From positions 32,501 through 95,870 of the forward strand of contig JAJHQM010000001.1 in NCBI GenBank assembly GCA_020833345.1: a DNA stretch of 63,370 bases, given 5' to 3'. The translations under genes were made by a program, and so were the position numbers. The stretch's first letter is position 1. The number at the start of each line of letters is the position of its first letter. Source of the DNA: Ignisphaera sp. GTDB lineage: Archaea > Thermoproteota > Thermoprotei_A > Sulfolobales > Ignisphaeraceae. The notes below the pieces were generated by a model. That model saw only the letters and a program-made list of their open reading frames with translations, ran no database searches and had not been told where the DNA came from. Shown in pieces: positions 3,395-59,161 of the stretch.

Positions 3395-4249
3395 GTGACT
3401 GCGTTGAAACCTAAGGGCTCTGCAGACCAGGAAACAAGTGGCGTTCTCAAAGAATTTGAAGGTGCCTTCTTGACACGTGGTAAAGAGGAATTTAAGAATT
3501 TTGAACAACTTGAACTCAGGGCTACAGGTACAAGCGATAAAGGGCCCAGGTCTAGGGTTGTTGAAGCAATTCTTCTATTACTGTACACAAGACCTATGAG
3601 AAGTTCTGAAATTGCTGGTTTGCTAAGAAAGAAAAACAAAGTTATTAGTAGCTACTTGAGCTATTGGAAGGTTCGTGGATATGTAGAGTTCAGATCTGGT
3701 TACTGGGTTTTGACGAAGAAGGGAGAGGAATATGTTGCAACACTTCTCCACACCCTAAATGTACACGTTTTAACTCCTTACACTGTGGTTCAGTTAGCCC
3801 AGAAACTAGTATTAGAATCAGTTCCTTGGACTGAAAACCACTGGAAAACACCAGAGGCTAAACAAGGTGAGACAGAAATACAGTCTTTTGCTGTTAGGCA
3901 TACTAGTTCAAATGTGGGTAAACAAGTACCTAGTCCCATAACTGAGCAGGCACAGGTAGAGAGGATATTAAAATGCTTGGAAAGAATTGTGAACTCAAAG
4001 GATCTTTCTGAAGAAGAAGCTTATATCCTAAGACATATGGTAAAACACTATACAGAATGGGGCAGTACGTACCTATACCTTGACCAGCTAAGCGAGGACC
4101 TTCACTACCAGCCTCAAGAACTCCTCTTAATTTTGCGAAAGCTACAGACAAAGAAGTTACTATACCTCTATACTGATAAGAGGTTTGGCATACGAGTTGG
4201 CTTAGGAAAGAGTTTGAAACAGCTGTTAGACACCTGTGCAGTTAAGTAG
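3395..4249 (+). CDS. whiP: WhiP-like winged-helix replication initiator
   Basis: A 284-residue protein with two winged-helix domains. The first, about residues 45-115, reads GPRSRVVEAIL...RPMRSSEIAGLL...SSYLSYWKVRGYVEFRSGYW, the pattern I associate with crenarchaeal WhiP, a Cdt1-like protein found beside replication origins. The second lies about residues 185-270. A linker of low conservation joins them. The GTG at 3395 is chosen because a TATA-like box (AAATATAT, centre about 3364) is 31 bases upstream; the ATG at 3299 would lie before the promoter. The alternative is a generic two-domain transcription regulator. Confidence 0.65.
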   Translation: MTALKPKGSADQETSGVLKEFEGAFLTRGKEEFKNFEQLELRATGTSDKGPRSRVVEAILLLLYTRPMRSSEIAGLLRKKNKVISSYLSYWKVRGYVEFRSGYWVLTKKGEEYVATLLHTLNVHVLTPYTVVQLAQKLVLESVPWTENHWKTPEAKQGETEIQSFAVRHTSSNVGKQVPSPITEQAQVERILKCLERIVNSKDLSEEEAYILRHMVKHYTEWGSTYLYLDQLSEDLHYQPQELLLILRKLQTKKLLYLYTDKRFGIRVGLGKSLKQLLDTCAVK

Positions 4250-4264
4250 TAAACAGATAAGCAA

Positions 4265-4442
4265 CTACAATAACAATAACTGTAGCACCTTTGCAAGTAG
4301 CTTACTCACAATCTATTCTAATGCGATATAACATTGCATTTAATTCCTTGTTATTGTTAAAAACACATTAAGATGCTTCATTATACAAACTGCTATGATA
4401 TACAGGTACAGGCACTTATTACCCGCTTTGTTGTAATTGTAG
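4265..4442. repeat. Two nested inverted repeats downstream of whiP
   Basis: In the 227-bp spacer between whiP and pcm, CTACAATAACAA (4265-4276) faces its reverse complement with one mismatch at 4431-4442, and AACAATAAC (4272-4280) faces GTTATTGTT at 4350-4358. The two genes converge here, so these are not promoters. They could be protein-binding sites or terminator remnants; function is not known. Confidence 0.4.
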
Positions 4443-4476
4443 TAGTCTCTAGCTTTAACCTGATAAGCCAAGCAAA

Positions 4477-5172
4477 CTATTCATAACCATATCTACTCCA
4501 TCCATATTCTCCGATAAGAGGTACAAAAATACATGGCACAGATTCTTTAATTCTTATACTGCCATCCCTCAGCTTATCGATAACCAGCAGTACTTGGCTC
4601 CACCTATTACCTACAGGTATCACAAGCCTTCCACCAGGCTTTAGCTGGTTTATGAGAGGCTCTGGAATTGTAGGTGCAGCGGCTGTTACCATTATTTTAT
4701 CATAAGGTGCAAAGAGCTCCAGACCCTTGCTTCCATCGCCTACAACAAAGGTTGCGTAGTTTAACAGCTCTGGGGCAGCCTTTGCAAAGTTTTCTACAGC
4801 CTTCTTACTAAGTTCACGCACAATTTCTATCGTATACACATGACCTCCTCCCTTAGCCACTATATACGCTAGTATGGCTGCTTGATACCCAGACCCTGTA
4901 CCAACTTCTAGTACAATGTCATGTGGTTGTACAGCAAGCTCTTCAGTCATTATTGCAACCATGTGCGGAGCACTAATTGTTTGACCAAAGCCTATCGGAA
5001 GAGGGCTATCGACATACGCATAGCACCTGAGGTGCTCTGGTACAAAACATTCCCTAGGTATATTCAGAAATGCTTCTTCAACAAGCTTACTCCTTATCAC
5101 TCCTTCGCTCTTCAAATCTTCAACAAGCCTTCTCCTTTCTTCATAGAACTGCAAGGTACGCCACATAAACAC
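4477..5172 (-). CDS. pcm: Protein-L-isoaspartate O-methyltransferase
   Basis: SAM-dependent enzyme that methylates isoaspartyl residues to start their repair. The 231-residue length is typical. The substrate loop PLPIGFGQTISAPHMVA lies at about 57-73, and SAM motif I is EVGTGSGY at 89-96. Motif VVGDGSKG and the C-terminal RLVIPVG follow. A second ATG two codons in (MWRTLQ) is an alternative start. It is divergent from the DUF371 gene with only 46 bases between them. Confidence 0.93.
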   Translation of the reverse strand: MFMWRTLQFYEERRRLVEDLKSEGVIRSKLVEEAFLNIPRECFVPEHLRCYAYVDSPLPIGFGQTISAPHMVAIMTEELAVQPHDIVLEVGTGSGYQAAILAYIVAKGGGHVYTIEIVRELSKKAVENFAKAAPELLNYATFVVGDGSKGLELFAPYDKIMVTAAAPTIPEPLINQLKPGGRLVIPVGNRWSQVLLVIDKLRDGSIRIKESVPCIFVPLIGEYGWSRYGYE

Positions 5173-5218
5173 TCTTTACTCTCTACACTCTTTAACTTTA
5201 AACAGGTATTAACCTGAA

Positions 5219-5791
5219 ATGCCTCAAGAGCAATTAGTAAAGGCGTACGAAATTCTTAGAGCAAGAGGTCATGAGAGTATAAGAGCATTGCATAGAACAA
5301 CATTTGAATTTACAAAAGATAGCGAGGTAACTCCACGAGGGGACTGCATACTGGGTGTAAAGCTAGATAAAGCAGTTGCAGACCTCAGTCAAGAGTTTAA
5401 GAAAGCTATTAAAAGAAACAGTGCAATAGTTATCATTGTGCTTGAGGTTGAGGAGTTCAAAGATGTTGTACTGGCCAGAGGAAGCAGTAAGCTTGTTTTA
5501 GAGGATGATAAGAGAGTTGTTGTGAGAAGAAGTAAATTCATAGGCAAAGAAACCCTTGCCATAGAGTCTAACAAAGCTGCTAAAGACATTGATCGAAGGC
5601 TTATTGAAAAGCTTAGGAATAGGAGTGTAGAGCTCATAATTCATCTTTATGTGCTTGACCTAAGCGATGTGATAAAGCAAAGTCCTGTACAAAGCTTTGA
5701 GGACTTAACAGTTAAAAAGTGTTGTAAAGCTGTAGCCAATAGCGGTGTTAAGCTGAGTGAGAGTTGCAATAACTTTAAAAAAGAATTGTGA
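5219..5791 (+). CDS. DUF371 family protein
   Basis: A 190-residue archaeal protein of unknown function. The N-terminal part GHESIRALHRTTFEFTKDSEVTPRGDCILGV is the conserved signature I associate with DUF371. The C-terminal third is divergent. It is first in an apparent operon with the NAD kinase gene, which overlaps it by 35 bases, and the Nob1-like gene. Confidence 0.75.
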   Translation: MPQEQLVKAYEILRARGHESIRALHRTTFEFTKDSEVTPRGDCILGVKLDKAVADLSQEFKKAIKRNSAIVIIVLEVEEFKDVVLARGSSKLVLEDDKRVVVRRSKFIGKETLAIESNKAAKDIDRRLIEKLRNRSVELIIHLYVLDLSDVIKQSPVQSFEDLTVKKCCKAVANSGVKLSESCNNFKKEL

Positions 5792-6581
5792 TATATGCAG
5801 GGAGCTTGCATGGAAGGTTTTAGAGCTTGGGGAAAGAGAGCTAGGGCTAGATATGTACATAGATGTAGAGGCAGTAGACGAGATTGCATGGAGCAAAATC
5901 TATAAGCCTGGTAGTGACAAAGTTAATGCAGTAATTGTGATAGGCGGCGACGGCACACTCTTTCGCTTTCTTCACAAGCTTCGCGAGTGTTGCGATATAA
6001 CACTGCTTACAGTAAAGGCTGGCAGAAGAAACTTCTTCATGGAGGTAAAACCTGAGGAACTTGAGCAAAGGTTGAGGGATTTTGCTGAGGGTAAGTACTT
6101 TATAGAGGAGTTTCCCAGGCTTAACGTAGTTATTGCTGAGAGAGATGTTATAGCACCTCCAGCTCTAAACGATGTTGTTATAGCAAGTTGGGGGCCCTAC
6201 AGATACAAAGTGATAGGCTTGGAGGTGCATATTGATGAGGAGAAACTGTATAGTGTTGCCTGTGATGGCGTTGTGATAGCAACACCTGTAGGCTCCACAG
6301 CATATGCTCTCTCAGCCGGAGGCCCCATAGTGGATCACAGACTAGGTTGTATGGTTGTAGTGCCAATAGCACCAATACAGTTTAATGCAAAACCTGTAGT
6401 GATATCTCTCGATAGAAAGCTCAGAGTCGGGGTGATACATGGTGATGCAGCTCTCGTAGTCGATGGACAATTAGTGGATAGGCTGAAGGCAGGGGAGCAC
6501 GTAGAGATAACCGGAAGCAAGTGTAGTGCTAAGCTAGTAAGATTTTCAAGGTTTTCTACCTATGCAAGGCTCTCCCCATAA
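5757..6581 (+). CDS. nadK: NAD kinase
   Basis: Makes NADP from NAD using ATP or polyphosphate. The 274-residue protein has the GGDG motif (VIGGDGTLFR, 63-66) and the NAD-site motif TPVGSTAYALSAGGPIV at about 180-196. The N-terminal domain is short, as in other crenarchaeal enzymes. The start is a GTG inside the end of the DUF371 gene (35-base overlap), and its own end overlaps the next gene by 20 bases, so translation of the three is probably coupled. Confidence 0.92.
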   Translation: MRVAITLKKNCDICRELAWKVLELGERELGLDMYIDVEAVDEIAWSKIYKPGSDKVNAVIVIGGDGTLFRFLHKLRECCDITLLTVKAGRRNFFMEVKPEELEQRLRDFAEGKYFIEEFPRLNVVIAERDVIAPPALNDVVIASWGPYRYKVIGLEVHIDEEKLYSVACDGVVIATPVGSTAYALSAGGPIVDHRLGCMVVVPIAPIQFNAKPVVISLDRKLRVGVIHGDAALVVDGQLVDRLKAGEHVEITGSKCSAKLVRFSRFSTYARLSP

Positions 6582-6982: not shown

Positions 6983-8149
6983 TCAACACTTTTTCACAAG
7001 CTTTGCTATGAAGTAGCCTGAGGTATTGTGAATGTGAGGATGGAATCTTATAAACGCATTACTGTACCTGTAGCCGCTAACACCCCTTACACCTCTACTA
7101 ATATTTATACTAACTATCTCAGCACACTTTACTTCTTCAACAAAATTCTCAACTACCTCCTCATTTTCCTCTACCGTTACTGTACATGTAGAGTATACAA
7201 GCACACCTCCAGGTTTCAGTATGTGAAAAGCTGAGCGTAGAAATTGCACCTGATATTTTGCAGCGTTTCTAACATCTCTATAGCTTTTAAAATCAAGTAT
7301 TTTTGGTCTTACGCCAAGCGCTGTACAAGGGGGATCTACAACAACCTTATCTGCTTTTATCCATGGGAAGTCTATGTGGAGATACCTGGAATCAGCTCGC
7401 CATACTTCCGCAAAACACTCCTCTCCCAACCTCTCTAAATTGCTCATAAGTTCACCAAGCTTTCGTTGCGAATGATCAAAGGCTATTACATAAGCTTTAC
7501 CCTTGGAGTACTCAATTATATGAGTAGTCTTTCCCCCTGGAGCAGCACAAGTATCCACTACAAGCTCTCCTGGTCTTGGACTAAGAACATGAGTTACATA
7601 CATTGCGGCAAGGCTTTGAGGATATATAAGCCCTTCTCGGTACTCAGGCAATTCCCTAATTTTAGGAGCCCTATACACAGAGTTTACAGTCTCTGCAACA
7701 ACACCTCTCCTAACACCAGCCTTTAACACCTCTTCGCAATTCACTACAGCTACAGCATTGGCCACAGGTGTGCCATCCTCTGCAACAACCGTTGCTTCAT
7801 CACCCTTTCTCACATCCCTACACTCAACTAGCCCAGGAGCGTAAACATTAGCCCCCATATATATGGACTCAGCAGCCCTCTTATCTACAACAATCTTCTT
7901 GTCTAACAGCCTAACTTTGAATGGACCCTTAACTGGAAAGTATAGCGCTTCCTCAAGTTCCTCATCTGCATACACCTCTACACCTCTCTCCCTAAGCCTA
8001 TCAATAACAATACCAGTTGAAGTCCGTAAAACGTTAACCCTTACATAAAGCCTAGAACCAGGGCTTGTAATAGAGTTAAGAAAGTTCGCAACCTCCTTAC
8101 CATAGACACGCTCTAAGGCTCTTAGAAGCCCAGCATCATAGTGAAGCAA
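6983..8149 (-). CDS. NSUN-type RNA (cytosine-C5) methyltransferase with PUA domain
   Basis: SAM-dependent m5C methyltransferase of the NOL1/NOP2/Sun family acting on tRNA or rRNA. A PUA domain spans about residues 90-170 (AAESIYMGANVYAPGLV...GDEATVV). Motif I is DTCAAPGGKTTHI, motif IV is VDPPCTALG and motif VI is YSTCTVTVEENE, so both catalytic cysteines are present. The 388-residue length and PUA position resemble archaeal NSUN6-like enzymes. The target base is not predictable from sequence alone. It converges on the Nob1-like gene. Confidence 0.88.
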   Translation of the reverse strand: MLHYDAGLLRALERVYGKEVANFLNSITSPGSRLYVRVNVLRTSTGIVIDRLRERGVEVYADEELEEALYFPVKGPFKVRLLDKKIVVDKRAAESIYMGANVYAPGLVECRDVRKGDEATVVAEDGTPVANAVAVVNCEEVLKAGVRRGVVAETVNSVYRAPKIRELPEYREGLIYPQSLAAMYVTHVLSPRPGELVVDTCAAPGGKTTHIIEYSKGKAYVIAFDHSQRKLGELMSNLERLGEECFAEVWRADSRYLHIDFPWIKADKVVVDPPCTALGVRPKILDFKSYRDVRNAAKYQVQFLRSAFHILKPGGVLVYSTCTVTVEENEEVVENFVEEVKCAEIVSINISRGVRGVSGYRYSNAFIRFHPHIHNTSGYFIAKLVKKC

Positions 8150-9628: not shown

Positions 9629-9946
9629 GGTGCACGGGTAGGGCCTGGGGGGCTCGCCCTCCCCTCATGCCGAAATGGGCGTCATGCGGGGGCCAGTAAC
9701 CTATACTACTAGTGTAGTGGGCTTTGGCAAAACCCACCACACCGTTATGAACCCCCGCCCCGTGGGGCCGGTGGTGGTGGGGTCACCTCTGGAGGGAGGT
9801 GGCTACCACCTTTGCAGGGGGATGGTCAGGTCCGGAAGGGAGCATCCTAACCCCTGACATCGGCGTTCACGGGTCTACGGGGGAGAGTCCCGGTGTGGTG
9901 GGTTTTGCCAAAGCCCACTACACTAGTAGTATGGGGGCCGTGCACC
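9629..9946 (+). ncRNA. ffs: Signal recognition particle 7S RNA
   Basis: Archaeal SRP RNA of about 318 bases. Helix 1 is formed by GGTGCACGG (9629-9637) and CCGTGCACC (9938-9946). Helix 8 carries the signature GGTCAGGTCCGGAAGGGAGCA around 9829-9849 with its returning strand TCCTAACCCCTGACA. Helix 6 is the GC-rich hairpin ending GGAGGTGGC near 9795-9810. Helix 5 is a perfect 42-bp duplex. The RNA binds SRP19 and SRP54 and targets membrane proteins. Its 3' end is 3 bases from the pelota start codon. Confidence 0.95.
9703..9932 (+). repeat. Perfect 42-bp inverted repeat forming SRP helix 5
   Basis: Bases 9703-9744 and 9891-9932 are exact reverse complements over all 42 positions, separated by 146 bases. 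They form helix 5 of the SRP RNA with no visible bulge or mismatch; a G-U pair could extend it outward. Confidence 0.95.
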
Positions 9947-29751: not shown

Positions 29752-29845
29752 GCCGCCGTAGCTCAGCCCGGTAGAGCGCCGGACTCATATGCTATAGTGT
29801 GGTTGGGAGATCCGGTGGTCGCGGGTTCAAGTCCCGCCGGCGGCA
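29752..29845 (+). tRNA. tRNA-Met(CAT) with 20-base intron
   Basis: Acceptor GCCGCCG (29752-29758) pairs with CGGCGGC (29838-29844), discriminator A, no encoded CCA. The anticodon stem CCGGA (29779-29783) pairs with TCCGG (29811-29815). Anticodon CAT is at 29786-29788. The extra 20 bases at 29790-29809 fit an intron at the canonical 37/38 site. It may be elongator Met or, if lysidine-like agmatidine is added, Ile2; the acceptor is not initiator-like. Confidence 0.92.
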
Positions 29846-29919
29846 CTATATCAATTCTAATATTTGATTTCGTTCTAATAAATAATGTATTATTGAATAC
29901 TGATTTCGGTGTTTTAATA

Positions 29920-55814: not shown

Positions 55815-58538
55815 GTGCTACCATTGAAGCGAGAGCTCTCACTTGATTTTTCAAATGGAATTGCGTATGCTCATGAATTTGGTGATGCTGAGGTTCTAAG
55901 CCTTCTCATTCCTCAAATTGCTCAATGGTTTAAAGGTAAATACGGCTCCTTGACCCCCCCGCAAAAAATGGCCATACCCTACATAAAGGCTGGTTACAAT
56001 GTTTTAATATCTAGTCCTACAGGTACGGGAAAAACCTTAGCTGCATTCTTGCCCATAATTGATGAGCTTTTTCGATATGCTTTAAGTGGCGAATTAAAGG
56101 ATCAAGTATACGTGGTATATGTTTCGCCATTAAGGGCTTTAAATAACGATATGCAGAAGAACCTCATACAGCCGCTTTCTGACATTAGGGAGCATATTAG
56201 CAAGGAGCTTGGAGTAAATGTGGATGTAAGAGTTGCGGTAAGGACTAGCGATACGCTACCTCATGAAAAATCTAAAATGGTTAAGACACCTCCGCATATC
56301 CTTATTACAACACCAGAGAGCCTTGCTCTTGCTTTAAATGCTCCTAAATTTAGAGAAAAGCTTGCTACAGTGAGATGGGTTATTGTAGATGAGGTTCACG
56401 AGCTTGCATCTAGCAAACGGGGAGCTCATTTATCGTTATCTCTTGAAAGGTTAGTTGATCTTGTTGGCAATGACTATCAGAGAATAGGTTTAAGCGCTAC
56501 AATAGCACCGCTAGAAGAAGTTGCAAGGTTTTTAGCAGGTTATGATGATGGTGGTGTCCCAAGACCTATAGTAATAGCTGATGCAAGGTTCTCAAAACCT
56601 ATAGACATAAGGATTGCTGTACCCCGCTTTGACTTGGTCTATACGCCCGCTTCTGTACTTAATGAAGCAATATATGAAGAGTTAGTGAAGCTGGTTTTGC
56701 AACATAAGACTACGCTTGTGTTTACTAATACAAGAAGTGCTACAGAAAGAGTTGTGTACAAGCTCAAGAAAAGCTTAAGCTCAAATGGAGTATTAGACGC
56801 TGATGAAATTGAGGCCCATCACAGTAGCTTAAGTAGAGATTTGAGACTTGAAGTTGAGGATAAGCTTAAAAAAGGGTTTTTGCGAGTAGCAGTTTCTTCA
56901 ACAAGTTTAGAGCTTGGTATTGATATAGGGTACATAGATCTTGTAGTACTGTTAAGCAGTCCAAAAAGTGTTACAAGGCTTTTGCAAAGAGTTGGTAGAG
57001 CCGGGCATAACGCTTATGCTGTTAGTAAAGGAGTTATAATAGTAGTGGATAGGGACGATTTAGTTGAGTGTACAGTACTAGCAAAACTCGCAATTCAGAG
57101 AAAGATAGACCGTGTGAAAATACCTAAGAAACCCCTTGATATTCTAGCACAGCACATAGTTGGGATGTCTCTTGAAAGGCCTAGAACTATTGATGAGGTT
57201 TTTAGAGTCATTAAGAGAAGTTACTCTTATCACGAAATTACAGAGGAGGAGTTATTAAGCGTCATTAAGTATCTTAGTGGTAAGTATCCTGGTCTAGAGG
57301 ACTACAGTGTCTATGCTAAAATACGGTATGATGAAGAGTCAAAGGTTATTGGAAGGAAGAGAGGTGCCAGAATGATATACCAGCTTAATGTGGGAGCAAT
57401 ACCTGATGAAGCAAAGGTTATTGTAGTGGCTGTGGTTAACGGAAGGAAGAGGTATATTGGGGATCTAGAAGAGGGATTTGCAGAAATTCTGGCACCGGGG
57501 GACATCTTTGTTCTGGGTGGCAAGACATATAGAGTTTTATCTCTGTACCCAACATATATTGTTGTTGAGCCTGCTGAAGGAGAAAGGCCGACTGTTCCCT
57601 CATGGTTTTCTGAAATGTTGCCACTAGCTTACGATTCAGCACTTGAAGTAGGAAAGTTTAGAAGAATAATCGCTGAACTAATTAATTTCATGCCTAGGGA
57701 GTATGTTATATCATGGATTATGAAAGAGTACAACATTGAGAGACATGCAGCTGAGCATATTTACGATTACGTGTATCAGCAGATGGTTTTTACAAACAAT
57801 AAAGTTCCTTCAGATAGACTCATATTAATTGAGCTATGGTTTGACACTGAGAAAAGAACTACAAACATTATATTTCATAGCCTATTTGGTAGAAGGGTAA
57901 ATGATGTACTTTCAAGAGCATATGCATATGTTTTTGCCAGGTATCTTAGGGAAGGCGTTAAGGTAACAGTAACAGACAATGGCTTTATGCTGACATTTTC
58001 AAGCCCAATAAAGGTAGATGAAGTTTCAAGGCTCGTATCTATGGTGTCTCATAGAAATGTAGAGGATATTGTACGGAAAGCAGTAAGAGCAACAGAGTTG
58101 TTTAAGAAAAGGTTTAGGCATTGTGCTGAAAGAGCATTTATGTTACTTCGACGCTATAAAGGTGTTGATGTCTCAATTATGAGAAGACAAGTAAATGCTG
58201 AGAAGATTATACAAGCGCTTGAAATATACGATAAATTTCCAATAATAGAAGAGACATACAGGGAGATTTTAGAAGACTTCATGGACTTAACTCACGCCAA
58301 AGAGGTTTTAAAGAAAATAGAAGACAGTGAGATAAAGGTAGAAATAATAGAGAGCGATATAGTGCCAAGCCCATTTGCACATAACATAATAGCTTATGGA
58401 TATAGCGATGTTGTTTTAATGGAAGATAAGAGAAAGCTTATAGCAAAACTGCAAGACATGGTCAAGAAGGTTCTGGAGGAGAAAAGCAAGACCGCTAAAG
58501 AAGGCATTTACCACGAAGCACTACCCACAATTACATAG
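55815..58538 (+). CDS. lhr: Lhr-type superfamily 2 helicase
   Basis: Large ATP-dependent helicase of 907 residues, involved in DNA repair or RNA metabolism. Q-like motif LTPPQKMAIPYI, Walker A SSPTGTGKTLAAF, DEVHE box (VDEVHELA), SAT motif (LSATIAP), motif V SSTSLELGIDIG and motif VI QRVGRAGH are present. The C-terminal 450 residues correspond to the Lhr-core winged helix and Lhr-specific domains. The start is a GTG; TATA-like TTTAATAAG lies about 60 bases upstream. Confidence 0.93.
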   Translation: MLPLKRELSLDFSNGIAYAHEFGDAEVLSLLIPQIAQWFKGKYGSLTPPQKMAIPYIKAGYNVLISSPTGTGKTLAAFLPIIDELFRYALSGELKDQVYVVYVSPLRALNNDMQKNLIQPLSDIREHISKELGVNVDVRVAVRTSDTLPHEKSKMVKTPPHILITTPESLALALNAPKFREKLATVRWVIVDEVHELASSKRGAHLSLSLERLVDLVGNDYQRIGLSATIAPLEEVARFLAGYDDGGVPRPIVIADARFSKPIDIRIAVPRFDLVYTPASVLNEAIYEELVKLVLQHKTTLVFTNTRSATERVVYKLKKSLSSNGVLDADEIEAHHSSLSRDLRLEVEDKLKKGFLRVAVSSTSLELGIDIGYIDLVVLLSSPKSVTRLLQRVGRAGHNAYAVSKGVIIVVDRDDLVECTVLAKLAIQRKIDRVKIPKKPLDILAQHIVGMSLERPRTIDEVFRVIKRSYSYHEITEEELLSVIKYLSGKYPGLEDYSVYAKIRYDEESKVIGRKRGARMIYQLNVGAIPDEAKVIVVAVVNGRKRYIGDLEEGFAEILAPGDIFVLGGKTYRVLSLYPTYIVVEPAEGERPTVPSWFSEMLPLAYDSALEVGKFRRIIAELINFMPREYVISWIMKEYNIERHAAEHIYDYVYQQMVFTNNKVPSDRLILIELWFDTEKRTTNIIFHSLFGRRVNDVLSRAYAYVFARYLREGVKVTVTDNGFMLTFSSPIKVDEVSRLVSMVSHRNVEDIVRKAVRATELFKKRFRHCAERAFMLLRRYKGVDVSIMRRQVNAEKIIQALEIYDKFPIIEETYREILEDFMDLTHAKEVLKKIEDSEIKVEIIESDIVPSPFAHNIIAYGYSDVVLMEDKRKLIAKLQDMVKKVLEEKSKTAKEGIYHEALPTIT

Positions 58539-58632
58539 AGATGTCGCTTTACAGCTGAAAGCCTTGCTTTTTAAGGTGAGGCTTTCATTTGAGTGGAAAA
58601 GCTTATAAGCTTTCCTTGCTTTAATTGCTTTT

Positions 58633-58840
58633 TATGAAGAGTAATTGAAAACTGTGGTTGCCTCTAAGCACATGGATACGGGATTAGCAACCACTTAAAC
58701 AAGTTAAGATGGGGAAGCTCTGGCTCTCCCAACTACTCCTCAGAGGATGGATGTAAACACGAATATATGAAGGGAACCGATGAGCCGCCCCAGGAGAACC
58801 CTCACCCCTCAGGACAGGGTGGAGGTCATATAGGCATACA
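58633..58840 (+). ncRNA. Unidentified structured RNA candidate
   Basis: Between two convergent genes, a stretch of about half G+C by hand count stands out from AT-rich flanks. GTGGTTGC (58654-58661) pairs perfectly with GCAACCAC (58687-58694); CCTCACCC (58799-58806) can pair with GGGTGGAGG; GGGAAGC and GCTCTCCC form another hairpin near 58712-58730. A TATA-like AGCTTATAAGC at about 58602-58612 gives a 5' end near 58633. It has no C/D layout, is not tRNA, SRP or 5S RNA, and I do not see RNase P signatures. The rest of the 374-base gap shows nothing I identify. Confidence 0.5.
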
Positions 58841-58912
58841 TGTGTAAATCATAAACTTAAATGCACCCTAAGTACCTATACAGAATGGGGATAAGCTAAG
58901 CAGCATAGTTAT

Positions 58913-59161
58913 TTATGATGAGTGTATTAGTCCGCTCTGAGCAGATGATGGAGTCGGCACCCACTGACAGTCAATTGCGCCATATGGGCACACCAAAAAG
59001 CATACACTACAAAGACTACATTTATTATAATTAATTTTAACATGGTCATCTATATCAATATATATAGCATTATACGGGCATAGCTTTAGGCATGAAAGGC
59101 AATTGTTACATGCTATATAAATAATCTTAGGATAGCATTTGCCAACTCTCTTAATTTTCAC
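58913..59161 (-). CDS. Ferredoxin with two 4Fe-4S motifs
   Basis: An 82-residue electron carrier. CNNCLSCLKLCPYNAI and CSLCSVCFLVCPYGAI are two complete CxxCxxCxxxCP motifs. The frame extends upstream through tRNA-Leu, so it must start later. A TATA-like CTTATAAATAG (59197-59187) lies only 10 bases before ATG 59182 but 31 before GTG 59161, so the GTG is used. The C-terminal 20 residues (VPTPSSAQSGLIHSS) are a non-conserved tail. Confidence 0.8.
   Translation of the reverse strand: MKIKRVGKCYPKIIYIACNNCLSCLKLCPYNAIYIDIDDHVKINYNKCSLCSVCFLVCPYGAIDCQWVPTPSSAQSGLIHSS

Follow-up and report, generated by a model that had tools for sequence, protein, structure and literature searches.

The window, i.e. 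the whole stretch of 63,370 nucleotides analysed here, originates from a draft crenarchaeal genome (G000) of 1.3 Mb in 102 contigs. The stretch 58633-58840 of the window sits between an Lhr-type helicase gene on the plus strand, whose closest named homologue is found in an Ignisphaera MAG (84% identity), and a 4Fe-4S ferredoxin ORF on the minus strand. The flanking genes are convergent, as stated in a first-pass annotation of this DNA, and its conclusion that the stretch is not a 5′ leader is shared here. The GC island described there is found as well: G+C amounts to 0.48-0.51, thus about half, in 100-nt windows from 58650 to 58849 and exceeds that of most adjoining windows, which mostly lie at 0.29-0.45 with the exception of the stretches harboring a C/D sRNA and a tRNA.

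The box C/D sRNA is located at 58913-58971 on the plus strand (ATGATGA, CTGA, GATGATG, CTGA), where it overlaps the ferredoxin ORF at its 3′ end in antisense. Its guide stretches TTAGTCCGC and GTCGGCACCC are kept with small differences in the related loci L066, L067, L068 and L080, and its Rfam matches to sR2/sR12 are weak only. At 29752-29846 of the plus strand, ARAGORN reports a tRNA without identity and with a four-base anticodon (Rfam tRNA, 64.2 bits), for which an intron or misreading of the anticodon loop is the likely cause.

Comparison with other copies places the annotated coordinates within a larger unit, a repeated mobile element at 58553-58829. The features of the locus are as follows.

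55815-58538, plus strand: Lhr-type helicase gene.
58549-58552, plus strand: TTAC target tetranucleotide to the left of the element, where the TAM of the empty site would lie (alignment of copies).
58553-58829, plus strand: very probable IS200/IS605 element without tnpA and tnpB (PATE), 277 bp, ending in TCAT (aligned copies).
58557-58586, plus strand: left-end subterminal palindrome GAAAGCCT...AGGCTTTC (sequence and consensus of 91 left ends).
58602-58609, plus strand: TATA-like box of the left end, with a transcription start predicted near 58628-58635.
58653-58701, plus strand: PATE-specific hairpin module of 49 nt, with the stem 58654-58661 with 58687-58694 and the inner stem 58662-58664 with 58680-58682.
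58707-58828, plus strand: putative omega-RNA scaffold, homologous to the tnpB 3′ end and the right end.
58712-58730, plus strand: stem H1 (58712-58715 with 58727-58730) with the loop element CTGGCT at 58720-58725.
58736-58774, plus strand: stem H2 (58736-58742 with 58768-58774), with six of seven pairs in the window copy.
58800-58819, plus strand: right-end hairpin, degraded in the window copy.
58824-58829, plus strand: the pseudoknot's 3′ arm, GGTCAT where the consensus has GGTCAG; its partner is 58720-58725 (five of six pairs in the window copy).
58830-58849, plus strand: predicted guide, i.e. the host DNA that adjoins the right end on its 3′ side, from the omega-RNA anatomy given in two reports (PMC10097598, PMC11043419).
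58913-59341, minus strand: 4Fe-4S ferredoxin ORF.

Eight matches to the stretch with E ≤ 6e-12, itself included, are found in its own genome, the seven others being 68-79% identical. Strong matches in multiple copies occur in several of 98 genomes (own included), e.g. G004, G053 and G060; 78 of the 98 were tallied with matches at E ≤ 1, a count that includes chance hits. Alignment of 16 sequences (15 copies and one tnpB right end) yields the boundaries TTAC followed by A(A/G)CTGAAAGCC...GGAGGAGGTCA(G), with unrelated sequence beyond, and TTAC is present on the left side only. The ends were surveyed in 100 of the 110 copies of the hairpin module described below, the 10 others being left out. 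A left end was located in 91 copies, a right end in 90 and both in 81, some of the nine and ten failures being due to contig ends. Copies with both ends are 189-283 nt long (median 263) and, like the 277 bp of the window element, too short to encode a transposase. TTAC directly precedes 71 of the 91 left ends, and GGTCA followed by G is found in 80 of 90 right ends, where the window copy has TCAT instead. Palindromes are located near both ends, that of the left end with perfect 8-bp arms in the window copy; the right-end hairpin is kept in most copies and degraded in the window. The TATA-like box claimed at first pass is present (CTTATAAG) about 25-30 nt ahead of the claimed start at 58633, and such a motif occurs in 46 of 91 left ends, compared to a shuffled mean of 13 and a maximum of 20.

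Four relatives (L066, L067, L068 and L080) display the same neighbourhood with the element absent. The spacing between an anchor in the helicase and the C/D sRNA, obtained by subtraction of coordinates, is 426-443 nt in the window versus 156, 107, 50 and 69 nt, respectively, and in the closest relative, L066, it is 274 nt shorter than in the window. Upon joining of the flanks, the alignment score exceeds that of 200 shuffles for L066 only (83.5 versus 78.5), those of L067, L068 and L080 being no better than the 200 shuffles, and no base-exact empty site was found from the joined flanks of the four. The empty site therefore rests on spacing and not on a base-by-base match.

The parentage of the element is illustrated by contig C37 of the same genome, which harbors a 386-aa TnpB frame that is open and scores 61.4 bits for the TNB domain. 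Ends matching those of the element flank this frame, the left one near 6021 and the right one near 7444. The stretch 58707-58828, or part of it, matches 11 of 30 loci chosen for tnpB, the left part of the window element matches three, and two sister-copy queries match further left ends among these loci. Sister copy L063 and tnpB locus L154 are 91% identical over 126 nt, and several TnpB tails finish with ...APQMTDVNPNR or similar, coded by the scaffold stretch. Sequence comparison thus assigns the 3′ ~120 nt of the element to the tnpB 3′ end and the right end. Since both ends are common to full-length tnpB elements, tnpA and tnpB would have been lost and the ends retained. TNB-domain matches are present in all 20 genomes searched, 19 of them over the cut-off; in the own genome PF07282 is matched and OrfB_IS605 (PF01385) is not. 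A Y1 transposase is found in only six of the 14 PATE genomes and was not found in the draft of the own genome, so that movement at present would need a TnpA absent from the draft or lost. In the same C37 locus (L046), a 40-aa zinc-ribbon ORF lies between left end and tnpB (6101-6223). Directly upstream of the open-frame element, at about 3960-5515, a decayed tnpB element with left and right ends of its own is located, which contains a similar zinc-ribbon ORF (near 4058-4183).

On its own, the plus strand folds no better than shuffled sequence (z = -0.08, 85 of 200 dinucleotide shuffles as good), and for the minus strand the signal is weak (z = -1.52). RNAalifold predicts no structure on 88 cores and a weak one on 27 sequences. 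The stems of scaffold and module were named by eye after RNAalifold and then counted and tested. Of the structured non-coding RNA locus claimed at first pass, the comparison among copies upholds what single-sequence folding does not, and the proposed structure is supported solely by this comparison. Covariation in relatives, which had been suggested as a check, is seen in scaffold as well as module stems.

Among 27 sequences, one pair of H1 (73/85) is G-C in 14 and A-U in 8, and one pair of H2 (98/128) is U-A in 11 and G-C in 9. Both-sided changes within the scaffold stems amount to 25 cells versus 13.8 upon shuffling, with none of 500 shuffles attaining 25, and 87.3% of the stem cells are paired versus at most 57.8% when slid; the pair-count and type-count measures are unexceptional, being attained by 160 and 389 of 500 shuffles, respectively. 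At one position of H2, all four Watson-Crick types are observed among tnpB loci, seven of nine of which pair (G-C in L147, L157 and L165, T-A in L151, A-T in L153, C-G in L164 and L166), with mismatches in L154 and L041. These nine loci were chosen by eye for a GATGACAGATG-like core from 66 matches to a loose pattern, most of them chance; L019, a PATE, as well as L020, L022 and L023 were left out as not being, or not being confirmed as, tnpB loci.

The two ends of the scaffold are connected by a predicted pseudoknot. In 62 of 88 cores, the final six nucleotides have a fully complementary six-mer on the 5′ side, as opposed to seven of 88 after shuffling; the search for the six-mer covered the first 60 nt of each core, and only that part was shuffled. 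The partner is mostly found at -110, where the H1 loop reads CTGACC or CTGGCC; in seven of eight tnpB loci tried it is located at -108 to -112 and in L166 at -126. In alignment A1, 96.1% of the pseudoknot cells are paired. Because position, covarying stems and pseudoknot resemble those of ISDra2, the 3′ part is called an omega-RNA scaffold. Judged from its sequence it is that of a TnpB omega-RNA, for which host DNA starting at 58830 would serve as guide.

A further hairpin, GTGGTTGC...GCAACCAC with inner stems, separates the left end of the element from its scaffold. A model of 49 positions (R1) built from this hairpin detects 110 places, which fall in 14 of the 214 genomes searched within the order and are spread over five families and eight genera; the same 14 genomes of 229 are obtained at class level. 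No R1 match is found in 29 tnpB-chosen loci (two of which, L041 and L046, overlap), and the only match in 22 further loci, L019, is a PATE copy. On this basis, the module is no longer regarded as a coding tail of tnpB. Both-sided changes in the module stems amount to 28 cells versus 10.0 shuffled, and 88.1% of cells are paired versus at most 56.6% when slid, both from an alignment adapted to the structure; a free alignment gives both-sided changes of 8 versus 3.3. Read on the plus strand, G-U pairs outnumber A-C (96 versus 52). As the module is missing from the tnpB-chosen loci and yet covaries, selection would have acted on it within the PATE lineage.

Rfam HgcC is known from GC islands in AT-rich archaea. 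HgcC matches at E ≤ 1 are found in five of eight sister-copy loci scanned, all below the cut-off (E of 6.7e-6 to 6e-4 in L276, L176, L264 and L184, just 0.55 in L190), and in 10 of 14 mostly tnpB loci. The tnpB-linked L164 attains 51.3 bits, over the cut-off of 50, and two places in G072 attain the cut-off as well. L159, L156 and L019 match HgcC and also sot0042, the first two at the same place. Across 20 genomes, 95 HgcC places are found at E ≤ 1e-5. At least 21 of these are preceded on their own strand by a TNB domain at a distance of -15 to 120 nt, eight of them at exactly 24 nt, whereas the control arrangements, i.e. a TNB domain downstream or on the opposite strand, occur in none of the 95 among the matches listed. 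Seventeen follow the module and lie in PATEs, and 57 follow neither module nor TNB domain among the matches listed; unlinked places such as L302, L313 and L316 may be chance matches, decayed elements or further lineages of solo omega-RNAs. Most likely, these sequence matches mean that HgcC is an archaeal TnpB omega-RNA. The window copy shows no HgcC match at E ≤ 10, let alone one at the cut-off of 50 bits, and since the model misses it the copy is not filed as HgcC.

Taken together, the feature, formerly annotated as of unknown class, is very probably, both in identity and in anatomy, an IS200/IS605-type palindrome-associated transposable element (PATE) that lacks tnpA and tnpB and whose TnpB omega-RNA scaffold is akin to Rfam HgcC.

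The following working would be consistent with this anatomy. In an Ignisphaera-like crenarchaeon, the PATE would have entered the spacer between helicase and ferredoxin genes, directly behind a TTAC. With tnpA and tnpB lost, a promoter-like left end, the hairpin module and the scaffold would have been kept. Transcription would proceed from the left-end promoter with the guide read from adjoining host DNA, and the RNA would be loaded by a TnpB encoded at another genomic locus. The latter would cut element-free copies of the site (TTAC followed by the flank), which would favour restoring or keeping the element, and movement would depend on TnpA acting in trans. Trans-acting omega-RNAs are an idea familiar from IscB work. 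Tentatively, and with a chance that we put somewhat below one half, crenarchaeal PATEs are stand-alone trans-acting TnpB guides in which a promoter-led module replaces the tnpB-coding 5′ part, by which the element is defended or restored, and HgcC belongs to the same class. That RNAs of this element family are active at all is close to an even call, and for the window copy the chance is lower: given its broken right-end hairpin, the mismatch in H2, TCAT in place of TCAG and the missing HgcC match, it may be a diverged, inactive fossil.

An alternative that agrees on the identity of the element and opposes its activity is a dead remnant spread by TnpA in trans, whose RNA-like features are tnpB leftovers and hairpins for single-stranded DNA transposition and whose RNA has no function. 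The palindromic ends of IS200/IS605 elements are DNA signals, which counts for this alternative, as do the degraded state of the window copy, the divergence of the seven other strong matches in its genome and the Y1 transposase not found there. It accounts less well for module stems that covary though the module is absent from the 29 tnpB-chosen loci, for the internal pseudoknot kept in 62 of 88 copies and for the promoter-like box retained in the left end; moreover, the excess of G-U over A-C in the module mildly favours a plus-strand RNA. The covariation may, for its part, have been inherited from active tnpB ancestors. On balance a functionless remnant is quite conceivable, if a little less than evenly probable.

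A structured RNA whose class has nothing to do with transposons, as seen by the first-pass annotation, is very improbable: the Rfam search proposed there indeed yields no family attaining its gathering score within the stretch, and matches at low threshold within the element are at chance level, but the repeats, the element boundaries, the homology to both ends of tnpB elements and the site vacant in four relatives stand against it. Although the locus is structured and GC-rich within an AT-rich genome, the chance of RNase P RNA (a candidate named at first pass), H/ACA RNA or another known housekeeping RNA is practically nil, with the genome's RNase P RNA on C17 (11027-11338, 169.7 bits), the SRP RNA at 9631-9944 of the window, archaeal RNase P (RF00373) not matched by the element and, for H/ACA RNA too, no such Rfam match at E ≤ 10.

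In order to relate the PATE with its omega-RNA scaffold to known systems, it was compared with the accounts available in part for each. PATEs of Haloquadratum walsbyi (PMC3119063) share the transposase-less length, near-terminal palindromes, IS605-related ends and high copy number, and some of them arose by deletion of the core. Unlike these, the present elements harbor an omega-RNA scaffold with a kept pseudoknot, a promoter-like box at the left end and a covarying hairpin which was found in none of the tnpB elements searched; the available part of the H. walsbyi account leaves guide RNA unmentioned. The PATE-like element of Halanaerobium hydrogeniformans (PMC7290912) is similar in its length of ~271 nt, its left-end hairpin, its last 58 nt of tnpB and its whole right end. 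It differs in being bacterial and present in one copy, with no extra module described, and its RNA is undiscussed in the part available. A search of the literature outside subscription sources, with several queries narrowed by extra terms, found no paper on a PATE-borne omega-RNA.

The omega-RNA of ISDra2 (PMC10097598, available part) is alike in its 116-nt scaffold, its stems and its overlap with the tnpB tail. Its pseudoknot connects -5 to -3 with -105 to -103, and here the partner lies ~110 upstream. Contrary to ISDra2, where the omega-RNA is encoded together with tnpB, the scaffold here is tnpB-less behind a promoter-like left end. Halobacterium sotRNAs, sense transcripts from the 3′ end of IS200/IS605 tnpB, are now treated as omega-RNAs (PMC12558985, in part); these are tnpB-linked and haloarchaeal, whereas the present element is tnpB-less and crenarchaeal. 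Rfam sot0042 (RF02656), the haloarchaeal omega-RNA family, matches L159 and L156 where HgcC does.

HgcC itself (RF00062) resembles the present family in that sister copies and tnpB 3′ ends match its model, some over the cut-off, and differs in that the model fails to detect the window copy. In Thermococcus kodakarensis, HgcC1-3 begin within transposase genes and HgcC4-5 do not, according to the part of PMC4247193 available. No paper naming both HgcC and TnpB was found in the literature outside subscription journals. With the assignment proposed here, HgcC would gain a testable function, described so far as unresolved (PMC5732400) or unknown (PMC5496347) in the available parts of two reports. 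Furthermore, the omega-RNA scaffold proves to be conserved on elements that have shed tnpB, and if solo guides of this kind act in trans, non-autonomous elements could recruit an RNA-guided nuclease in order to be retained, much as MITEs recruit transposases. Compared with these systems, PATEs and omega-RNAs are each known, and what is new is an omega-RNA without tnpB that comes with a conserved module of its own.
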